Below are positions 11,132-13,616 of a stretch of 28,902 nt of DNA, piece after piece. Location of the stretch: positions 1 through 28,902 of the IMG/VR virus record IMGVR_UViG_3300021963_000508, one strand, 5' to 3'. The stretch's first letter is position 1, and every line of letters begins with the position of its first letter. This stretch comes from a virus. The translations under genes were made by a program, and so were the position numbers. The notes beneath the pieces are model-generated. The model was given only the letters and a program-made list of their open reading frames with translations, was not told the origin of the DNA and ran no database searches.

Positions 11132-11878
11132 TCATTTCAACGACTCCAGCTCCAAAACCCGTCGCAACGGCACTGCTGCCACCTGTGGCACAACTGAATT
11201 TCCTAGTGCTCTAATGCGGTCCACCCGATTGGATAACCCATCATCTCCTCTAAAAAGAAGGGGTTTAGATACGTAGCTCCGCCAGTCTGGGCTGAGCATT
11301 GGGTTACCAGGATCCCAGCGAGGCGGCTTTTCTGTGCCAGTTTTTCGTAATTCACCCGCTCCCCCGAATCCTTGTGGTCCCGAGCTGTTGGGGTAGGCAA
11401 CAAGCCACCATCGGTCTCGGCGGTGACAGGCTCCCAAATCCGAAGCGCGTATGCATGACCATTCAGCGTCATACCCTGCCTCGGCCAATTCTCCGAGTAC
11501 GACTCCAAGTCCGTTAGTAACGATTGCTGCGACGTTTTCCAAGACGACGTATCTGGGTCGTACCAAGCGAATGACACGGATGAGTTCATAAAAAAGTCCT
11601 GAGCGAGTTCCTTGTTTGATTCCGGCTTGTTTGCCGGCAACGCTGATGTCTTGGCACGGAAAACCGCCGCAAATAACATCGGCGCTAAAAGCGGGTGGGT
11701 TGAAATTTTGAATGTCCGAATGGATTGGCACGGCTGGCCAGTGTTGATTCAAGATGCGTTGGCAGTACGGTTCCCATTCAATAAATTGAATCGTTTCAAA
11801 TCCGCCAACAATTCTTTCGGCGGCGTAAGAAAATCCTCCAATGCCGGAAAAGGTATCAAGTAGTTTTAATTTCGTCAT
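11132..11878 (-). CDS. dcm: C5 cytosine DNA methyltransferase
   Basis: A 248-residue enzyme that methylates cytosine at C5 using S-adenosylmethionine. Motifs in order: I LLDTFSGIGGFSYA (6-19), II-like QFIEWEPYCQ, IV GGFPCQDISVAG with catalytic Cys75, VI VVLENV (112-116), VIII ASDLGACHRRDRWW (145-158), and X RIRALGNSVVPQVA (221-234). The target-recognition region between VIII and X is only about 55 residues, so the enzyme is compact but looks complete. Its ATG overlaps the stop of the PD-(D/E)XK gene (ATGA, 11878-11875). It likely protects phage DNA or forms a modification half of a restriction pair. A second reading frame inside it is also open. Confidence 0.9.
   Translation of the reverse strand: MTKLKLLDTFSGIGGFSYAAERIVGGFETIQFIEWEPYCQRILNQHWPAVPIHSDIQNFNPPAFSADVICGGFPCQDISVAGKQAGIKQGTRSGLFYELIRVIRLVRPRYVVLENVAAIVTNGLGVVLGELAEAGYDAEWSCIRASDLGACHRRDRWWLVAYPNSSGPQGFGGAGELRKTGTEKPPRWDPGNPMLSPDWRSYVSKPLLFRGDDGLSNRVDRIRALGNSVVPQVAAVPLRRVLELESLK
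11203..11679 (-). CDS. overlapping +1-frame ORF inside the methyltransferase
   Basis: A 158-codon frame entirely within the methyltransferase gene on the same strand. Its product is not random in look: YDPDTSSWKTSQQSLLTDLE, SENWPRQGMTLNGHAY, GGLLPTPTARDHKDSG, then YLNPFFLEEMMGYPIGWTAL and a stop. These words (WPRxGMxxNGxAY, LPTPTAxD, LNPxFxExMMGxPIGWTxLE) match, from memory, phage proteins often found with cytosine methylases. Base by base, LLPTPTA is the +1 reading of WLVAYPN in methyltransferase motif VIII. Possible starts are ATG 11679 or ATG 11589. Either it is a genuine overprinted gene or it arises from constraint on the host frame; sequence alone cannot decide. Confidence 0.35.
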   Translation of the reverse strand: MLFAAVFRAKTSALPANKPESNKELAQDFFMNSSVSFAWYDPDTSSWKTSQQSLLTDLESYSENWPRQGMTLNGHAYALRIWEPVTAETDGGLLPTPTARDHKDSGERVNYEKLAQKSRLAGILVTQCSAQTGGATYLNPFFLEEMMGYPIGWTALEH

Positions 11879-12474
11879 GCCGCCAACGCGTTAGAAGCGT
11901 ATCGCCACGGGGTATCAACTGAACCAGCCCTTATTTCACGAATAAACGGATTGTTGCGCGGAACCAAATACACAGCCTCTTTACCATTGTTTTTCTTTTC
12001 TTTGACTGAGTAACCCAAGCCGCCAATTTCGTAATCGCAAAGCCAAACCTTGGCCTCTTGAATGTTGATGTAATAAAAACCGTCGTTAAAACCCCAGCAG
12101 TAATACAGGTTTGTTATCAAAGATTTGTTTTGTTCTTTTCTCAGGTGAATGCCGTAATAAACAAGTGCGTCTAGTTTTTCGCACGGCACCCACCATCCTC
12201 TTCTGTATTGCGGATCGTTGTGTTTACCGCCGCGTTTCTTGAACTCAAACAATGCTGTAATTTCGCCGTTGGGTGATTTGGCGGCAAAATCAATTTTGCA
12301 GTGTGGATCATCGCTGTAAGCCTCAATTTTTGACCTGAACTCCTGCGACAGCAAATACATTGCCCGTCGTTCGTTTTCAGCATCAATTTGCGTCTTCGTT
12401 GTCCGCTTCCCGTTGACTAACGGATGTTTGCGCGTTTGGTAATCAATCATTTCCGTGGACAAGAAAAAAGTCAT
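11875..12474 (-). CDS. PD-(D/E)XK superfamily protein, putative nuclease
   Basis: 199 residues from ATG 12474. A core typical of PD-(D/E)XK enzymes is visible: Asp62 in CKIDFAAKSPNGEI, then Glu77-Phe-Lys79 in TALFEFKKRGG, followed by WWVPCEKLDALVYYG and a beta-rich part ending GFYYINI. Phage proteins with the pattern xAxxExKxR...K.....A are recalled as uncharacterised members of this fold. Its start overlaps the upstream exonuclease stop (TGATG) and its own stop overlaps the methyltransferase ATG, so a nuclease-like and a methyltransferase gene are co-translated. It could be a restriction-type nuclease or a recombination nuclease. Confidence 0.6.
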   Translation of the reverse strand: MTFFLSTEMIDYQTRKHPLVNGKRTTKTQIDAENERRAMYLLSQEFRSKIEAYSDDPHCKIDFAAKSPNGEITALFEFKKRGGKHNDPQYRRGWWVPCEKLDALVYYGIHLRKEQNKSLITNLYYCWGFNDGFYYINIQEAKVWLCDYEIGGLGYSVKEKKNNGKEAVYLVPRNNPFIREIRAGSVDTPWRYASNALAA

Positions 12475-13154
12475 CAGAACTCCGGCTGATTCAGCATCAG
12501 GAAGGCATCGCGGGCGCCTTGCCACTCGATCACAGCCTCATCAACGTCAACCTTTTGCAGGGTTGTGTTTCCAGGGCGGGCCCAGAGCACCCCAGCCTTC
12601 TGTACGTACAGGTTTGGCCAGTGCAGGCTCAGCATTGCCAAATAACCGCCCAACTGGGTGCTTACGTCGTATGGACTGGCATCGGACTTGCCTTGGGTCT
12701 TTAGGTCCACCAGCACCAACTGTGTGTGATCATCCTTGCGCCGCAGCAGGCAATCAAAGCTTCCAGCAATGCTGCGCTCTACATCGCACAACCTGTATTC
12801 ACAGGCAATGGCCTCGTAGGTCTGCCAAACGGAATGATCCAGCAACGGTTCAATCCATTCGCTGTATTCCGCCGGATATTCGCCAGCGTCACCAGTCGTC
12901 AGAAAATCCTCCAACGCCTTGTGTACCGTCTTCCCCCGAGGCTCCCAAATATGCTTCGTCTCCATAATCCGTTTCATCGCCCAAGTGTCCTTCTTGCTTT
13001 TGCAAACTTGGGTCACCGAATGGTTCAGCCACATCCCTGTCGGTTCGTGGTAGTAGCGGTGCGCTTCCTCGTTGAACAGGATCGGCAACGGCTTCAACCA
13101 CCGCGAAGTCTCTGGGGCTGACGATTTCAACGCGTTCTGTTGGTGTGGGCTCAT
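12474..13154 (-). CDS. RecB/Cas4-like PD-(D/E)XK exonuclease
   Basis: 226 residues from ATG 13154 (TTG 13196 would add 14). From the longer frame the motifs are: His in EPRGKTVHKALEDFL, Glu in AIACEYRLCDVE, Asp in IAGSFDCLLRRKD, the Asp-x-Lys pair in LVLVDLKTQGK, and Gln/Tyr in DVSTQLGGYLAML. This is the classic RecB-family nuclease signature. In phages such proteins act with a single-strand annealing protein, and a DUF1071-type one lies downstream, so a two-component recombinase is likely. Its first 265 bases overlap the preceding frame, which is unusually long. Confidence 0.8.
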   Translation of the reverse strand: MSPHQQNALKSSAPETSRWLKPLPILFNEEAHRYYHEPTGMWLNHSVTQVCKSKKDTWAMKRIMETKHIWEPRGKTVHKALEDFLTTGDAGEYPAEYSEWIEPLLDHSVWQTYEAIACEYRLCDVERSIAGSFDCLLRRKDDHTQLVLVDLKTQGKSDASPYDVSTQLGGYLAMLSLHWPNLYVQKAGVLWARPGNTTLQKVDVDEAVIEWQGARDAFLMLNQPEF

Positions 13155-13329
13155 CTCTGAGAAGGTTGCGGTATGTGGGTGGTGTAAAACCGGCAATGCG
13201 TTTGGCGTCTTCCATTGTGATCAGCCAGCCCGGAGAAGGGTTGTCAAGATCCTGAAGAGTCCAGTGCTTTGCATCAATGCCACGCCTAAGCAGGCGGCGG
13301 ACTTCAGTTAGATCAAAGGCGAGTTTCAT
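12889..13329 (-). CDS. hypothetical protein overlapping the exonuclease gene
   Basis: From ATG 13329 (TAATG overlap with the upstream stop) the frame encodes 146 residues. The first 80 look genuine: FDLTEVRRLLRRGIDAKHWT, LQDLDNPSPGWLITMEDA, PTYRNLLRDEPTPTERV; such RGIxxxxWTxxDLDxPxPGW proteins are recalled from cyanobacterial phages. The last 60 residues are Gly/Asp-rich and lie fully over the exonuclease gene, so they may be mere read-through of the other frame, for instance after loss of an earlier stop. No function is known. Confidence 0.5.
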   Translation of the reverse strand: MKLAFDLTEVRRLLRRGIDAKHWTLQDLDNPSPGWLITMEDAKRIAGFTPPTYRNLLRDEPTPTERVEIVSPRDFAVVEAVADPVQRGSAPLLPRTDRDVAEPFGDPSLQKQEGHLGDETDYGDEAYLGASGEDGTQGVGGFSDDW

Positions 13330-13616
13330 TAAATCTCCCGCCACAACCGGTCACGGTCAGCACGGTCACGTTCGGCGCCGGCCATCGGGTGCAGCACGTA
13401 GCGGGCCGCCTGCGGGCTCTTCGGGTCGTCAGCGCCGACGTTCGGGCAGAAGGTCATGTACAGGCCAGTGTCGTCGTATTTGCCCATGGGGTGTCCATAA
13501 CAGGCATCGGCGGGCGGCGTGCGGCTGCTGGTGACGGAATAGGACACGGCACGGGTTTTGGCGTCGGCGGTCTGCCAGACGTATTTGCCCTTGTTCTCGG
13601 GTGCGTACAGCTTCAT
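13329..13616 (-). CDS. 95-residue hypothetical protein, GC-rich
   Basis: 95 residues (YVWQTADAKTRAVSYSVTSS, ACYGHPMGKYDDTGLYMTFC, then an Arg/Asp/Ala-rich end RDRADRDRLWREI). No family is recognised. It is clearly richer in G and C than the genes at 11.9-12.4 kb and 14.0 kb, which hints at separate acquisition. The stop is fused to the next start. A 33-base gap separates it from the upstream gene. Confidence 0.5.
   Translation of the reverse strand: MKLYAPENKGKYVWQTADAKTRAVSYSVTSSRTPPADACYGHPMGKYDDTGLYMTFCPNVGADDPKSPQAARYVLHPMAGAERDRADRDRLWREI

Follow-up and report, generated by a model that had tools for sequence, protein, structure and literature searches.

A C5 cytosine methyltransferase gene in the phage record IMGVR_UViG_3300021963_000508 very probably encodes a split enzyme from two reading frames of the same DNA: a catalytic α chain read in frame 0, and a small subunit, β, read in the +1 frame and overprinted on α. 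The window (the whole stretch of DNA analyzed, 28,902 bases) is a phage genome, with genes for an integrase, RusA, an exonuclease, a terminase, a portal protein and a major head protein. The frame 0 product matched PF00145 (5.4e-41, profile 2-167/324) and phrog_363 (4.6e-69), and the α and β reading frames overlap on the same strand for about 480 nt (Table 1). A sequence-only reading of this DNA had drawn attention to the +1 ORF of 158 codons inside the methyltransferase gene, which is indeed present and is open for 181 codons from stop to stop (11203..11748, minus strand). The words it had quoted from that frame were also found to be shifted readings of frame 0: SSWKTSQQSLL is the +1 reading of VVLENVAAIV, GLLPTPTA that of WLVAYPNS, and YLNPFFLEEMMGYPIGWT that of YVSKPLLFRGDDGLSNRVD.

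Table 1. Positions in the window of the α and β reading frames and of their conserved motifs.
Feature	Position	Strand	Basis or remarks
α, C5 cytosine methyltransferase, 248 aa	11132..11878	-	Motifs I-VIII and X, without motif IX; PF00145, phrog_363
β, overlapping +1 frame of α, 158 aa from ATG	11203..11679	-	ORF, phrog_1008, selection tests in homologues
α motif I (DTFSGIGG)	11834..11857	-	Alignment and sequence
α motif IV (GGFPCQDIS), catalytic cysteine	11642..11668	-	Alignment
α motif VI (ENV); +1 reading ..SWKTS..	11531..11539	-	Alignment and sequence
α motif VIII region (RRDRWWLVA); continuation in +1 reads LLPTPTA	11396..11422	-	Alignment and sequence
β conserved block YDPDTSSWKTSQQSLL..SENWPRQGMTLNG	11458..11562	-	Alignments
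β LLPTPTARD block	11377..11403	-	Alignments; TL consensus from PMC2413257
β motif-IX-like block LNPFFLEEMMGYPIGWT	11218..11268	-	Alignments; weak profile match to canonical motif IX
α motif X (GNSVVPQ)	11183..11203	-	Alignment, profile match

The ATG at 11679 is the sole ATG, GTG or TTG codon between the upstream stop (the frame is open from 11748) and the conserved part of β, and the β stop codon (11203-11205) ends at the start of α motif X. β matched phrog_1008 (1.8e-20, β residues 30-135), a family named “DNA methyltransferase”, so this protein family is in part already in the phage library; the name was taken from the methyltransferase and is silent on a separate overlapping frame. Overlaps were also seen upstream of α on the same strand. 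The stop codon of its upstream neighbor (11875-12525, 216 aa, without a PHROG match) overlaps the α start codon, and α may therefore be translationally coupled to that ORF. Two further ORFs on the minus strand, 12474-13196 (240 aa, exonuclease-like) and 12889-13344 (151 aa), overlap by ~300 nt in different frames.

The window gene has no +1 stop codon from motif IV to motif X, compared to a mean of 4.7 in synonymous shuffles of the gene. This openness is more than chance, as none of 300 such shuffles was free of stops. The window is one of 334 loci recovered by searching phages, viral contigs and genomes. The best β-profile match lay in the +1 frame of a methyltransferase in all 332 loci that had a match (332/332), with an overlapping methyltransferase in 331. 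For stop counts, the genes were reduced to <60% identity and expectations were taken from synonymous-codon shuffles. From motif IV to motif X, the +1 stops numbered 6 versus 90.1 expected in 23 genes seeded by β, and 38 versus 174.8 in 37 genes from cellular genomes. They numbered 30 versus 228.7 in 49 genes seeded by an α alignment that was itself built from loci first found via β, and 4 versus 39.8 in a set seeded by the window’s α, which is free of that dependence but small (6 genes). Overall, +1 stops in this region of the related genes were depleted about 5-14-fold, while stops in the +2 frame stood at 0.82 to 1.00 of expectation. In 34 canonical single-chain C5 methyltransferases from the same genomes, which served as a negative control, there were 391 +1 stops versus 408.7 expected and no gene was fully open.

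The depletion was confined to α-profile columns 61-220, where homologues carried 32 +1 stops versus 415 expected, so that stops in this frame are not common among them. There was no depletion in columns 1-60 (231 versus 213 expected), and stops were in excess in columns 221-250 (162 versus 118). Counted per codon, the onset in homologues was ~10 codons upstream of the FPC of motif IV, and canonical genes had no such step along the profile. Such borders are what one would see for a coding region beginning shortly ahead of motif IV and closing shortly ahead of motif X.

Two further analyses indicated that the +1 product is constrained beyond the demands of frame 0. Of 81 distant loci, each with <50% α identity to any sequence used for training, 79 had a +1 translation that outscored all 40 synonymous shuffles (mean z 6.9), and the two halves of β taken separately scored above all 60 shuffles in 50/81 and 77/81 loci. 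Only one of 38 canonical genes exceeded all of its shuffles in the same score test. A +2 “shadow” profile also beat shuffles, less strongly (z 3.2), which is expected because third positions that are fixed for the +1 frame are fixed for the +2 frame too. Four-fold-degenerate sites of α differed at 0.293 inside the overlap versus 0.460 and 0.499 outside it (Fisher 2e-53). Among 90 independent gene pairs, of which 83 were informative, the values were lower inside the overlap in 63 and higher in 20. Collectively, the comparisons show that both frames are protein-coding and under selection, and that the +1 frame is genuine coding sequence and no shadow of frame 0. They support the earlier suggestion that a second family, if real, was overprinted on a methyltransferase.

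What the +1 protein might do is suggested by what α lacks. The methyltransferase frame had been described as intact with all catalytic motifs. It is a methyltransferase and its motif X is present (E 2e-6 against the canonical C-terminal profile), but motif IX is missing: the Pfam match stops after motif VIII (167/324), only about 60 residues lie between motif VIII and motif X, and a pattern search of window frame 0 found no motif-IX core. Canonical single-chain enzymes have motif IX between the target recognition domain (TRD) and motif X in the same chain, and α does not. In an AlphaFold model of α (pLDDT 84.8), ~170 residues matched the large domain of M.HhaI at 1.8 Å; the resemblance was to that domain only, and a low-confidence stretch occupied the expected position of the small domain. 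In this model α has the large-domain fold of M.HhaI and M.HaeIII, canonical enzymes in which, unlike in window α, a single chain holds both the TRD and motif IX.

In β, on the other hand, the terminal segment YLNPFFLEEMMGYPIGWT aligned without gaps to canonical motif IX (e.g., LTPLECSRLMGFP in the control gene L336), and the motif-IX pattern was found in the window β as LNPFFLEEMMGYP. Of 93 split genes, 58 had the motif-IX core in the +1 frame and 7 had it in frame 0, at least two of these seven being motif X itself; in canonical genes it was found in their own frame in 21/32 and in the +1 frame in 2/32. The profile match of the β end to canonical motif IX was weak (hhalign E 0.007, probability 2.4%). 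β modeled alone was predicted poorly by AlphaFold (pLDDT 64.7); a fold search of the PDB with this model and a sequence search of the PDB gave no match, and Pfam and NCBIfam gave no family. The TRDs of C5 methyltransferases have a “TL” motif, P(STCA)PT.., 10-50 residues before motif IX (PMC2413257). In β, some 40 residues separate LLPTPTA from the motif-IX-like block that follows it, and the resemblance of LLPTPTARD to the PTPT core of the TL motif is suggestive only.

Relatives in other phages have the missing motif in a second ORF. Mycobacterium phage Palestino has two products annotated as DNA methylase, gp78 and gp77; α ends after motif VIII and an overlapping +1 ORF carries motifs IX and X, with the end of gp77 matching the canonical C-terminal profile (18.6 bits). 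Streptomyces phages have the same layout, with α extending to motif VIII and an overlapping +1 ORF bearing motifs IX and X. Since motif IX is missing from α, with a motif-IX-like block at the end of β in the window and motif IX in the second ORF of Palestino and the Streptomyces phages, the +1 product is best read as the missing small-domain part of the enzyme. Palestino gp77 (L385, 1832-2566) also has three PTP-type blocks before motif IX, LLPTPVATDAKG, LFPTPAARDGKG and LLPTPLTTDSQG, which are perhaps target-recognition modules. Annotation of such loci varied: the record for phiBT1 gp9.1 (L003) says “DNA methylase may be inactive” and the +1 ORF beyond it, with motifs IX and X, is unannotated, while in Mycobacterium phage DosHalletts (gp71, L386) and in L004 and L012 only the +1 β ORF is annotated, as a hypothetical protein, and the methyltransferase frame is omitted.

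The two-polypeptide split type of C5 methyltransferase is itself already known. According to PMC3404938, M.EcoHK31I consists of a larger polypeptide with motifs I-VIII, X and a predicted TRD and a smaller one with motif IX only, and that source gives M.AquI with motifs I-VIII in one chain and IX-X in the other. Compared by this description, the window gene is like M.EcoHK31I (YGGCCR) in that its larger chain has motifs I-VIII and X without IX. It differs in being a phage gene with a short α, while M.EcoHK31I is a bacterial restriction-modification enzyme whose α is said to hold the TRD. M.AquI (CYCGRG) is likewise a C5 methyltransferase in two chains, but motif X of the window is in α and not in the second chain; phiBT1, Samora and Palestino share the M.AquI division. 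The genes for the small and large subunits overlap in different frames in the window, and Lee, Kam and Shaw are said to have reported in 1995 that the β gene of M.EcoHK31I lies inside the α gene in another frame. The sequence-only reading overlooked that the +1 protein is probably a subunit of the same enzyme, bearing the motif IX that frame 0 lacks, and it overlooked the biochemical precedent of M.EcoHK31I.

A different out-of-frame protein within a phage methylase gene, the hidden HNH endonuclease of the ShiLan domain, has been described (PMC11855218). This element is an inserted homing element in ShiLan gp65, another methylase, while the ShiLan relative of the window gene is gp70, and we rejected it as an explanation for β.

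The sequence-only reading had itself raised the possibility of a database artefact. In that case, the +1 frame would go untranslated and owe its conservation to frame 0 and codon bias. The feared artefact does exist as a weak background: the best +1 words all lie on methyltransferase motifs, synonymous shuffles still reached ~37 bits against the β profile, and a few canonical methyltransferases gave weak partial matches to that profile of up to 34 bits (L403, L419-L421). It was rejected as the main explanation, and we regard it as highly improbable, given the sharply bordered depletion of stops that is lacking in canonical methyltransferases and in the +2 frame, the +1 scores in excess of shuffles and the slower four-fold sites.

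Programmed ribosomal frameshifting into the +1 frame, which would give an α-β trans-frame protein and no free β, is unlikely in our judgment. A shift at motif IV, from where the +1 frame is under selection, would yield a product that loses catalytic motifs, and a late shift would leave the upstream part of the +1 frame unprotected; moreover, the window gene has its motif X in frame 0. These points are set against the homologous loci showing neither a clear Shine-Dalgarno signal for β nor one start codon that is conserved among them, and against the second ORF with motifs IX and X in phiBT1, Samora and Palestino, where changing frame late in α would rejoin the enzyme into one chain. An ATG, GTG or TTG does precede the conserved part of β in 116 of 119 loci, though chance gives nearly as many. 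Because +1 selection is already present from motif IV onward and the window's motif X sits in frame 0, production of free β by internal initiation appears favored over frameshifting. Less likely again is that β is real but an independent phage protein (e.g., a regulator or anti-restriction factor) that shares DNA with the methyltransferase and is no subunit of it. Although β alone is without a fold match or a Pfam or NCBIfam family, no stand-alone β away from a methyltransferase was found among the 332 loci or the matches from 598 genomes, α lacks exactly the motif that β resembles, the second ORF of some phages carries motifs IX and X, and M.EcoHK31I provides a precedent for a subunit.

In the split enzyme that we propose, frame 0 would supply the catalytic large domain, with AdoMet binding, the motif IV cysteine, motifs VI and VIII and, from motif X, the closing helix, but without the motif-IX part of the small domain. 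The +1 frame would supply β as a separate polypeptide of ~158 aa whose C-terminal end has the motif-IX-like block, and the two would assemble into an active enzyme as in M.EcoHK31I. Its likely role would be methylation of the phage’s own DNA. We infer that β is a subunit and a polypeptide of its own, and likewise what the enzyme methylates. The N-terminal half of β was presumably overprinted on an old methyltransferase frame; toward the 3' end, β may be the more ancient of the two frames.

The arrangement is not confined to phages. Searches with the β profile of 299 genomes from the phylum of a Pseudomonas genome and 299 from that of a Peptostreptococcus genome gave matches in 17 and 7 genomes, respectively. 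Every matching locus among these 598 genomes had a methyltransferase in the frame before that of β, four of them being weak matches on canonical genes. Locus record titles mention cyanobacteria, Pseudomonadota, Bacillota, Bacteroidota and Actinomycetota, among others. In the cellular genomes L394 (α 638-1880, β 468-1893) and L396, the overlap of α and β is near-complete and exceeds 1,200 nt. A tree built from the catalytic part had one branch, with an SH-aLRT of 99, between 35 canonical genes and 53 split genes, the latter found by a profile search that favors relatives, and a single origin of the split genes is thus not contradicted by this tree. We think it fairly likely that an entire clade of C5 methyltransferases from prokaryotes and phages, annotated as single proteins, consists of two-frame heterodimers, that the clade occurs in a few percent of Pseudomonadota genomes as well as in several further phyla, and that it derives from one ancient overprinting event kept across phyla. 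We found no description of this breadth in the literature searched, of which coverage was partial, so an earlier description may exist; the main text of a survey of frame transitions (PMC3711429) does not mention the family.

Long same-strand overlaps between prokaryotic genes are often doubted, and here sequence comparison by itself, with negative controls drawn from the same genomes, is enough to show one. Annotations usually show one of the two proteins only, in phages and bacteria alike, and a second, usually unlabeled subunit from the same DNA may be needed by many C5 methyltransferases that have been cloned or annotated as a single ORF. Such a hidden subunit could explain “inactive” annotations, for example that of phiBT1 gp9.1, and would confuse recoding or codon-optimized expression. 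The origin of a protein by overprinting also becomes testable across a deep family.
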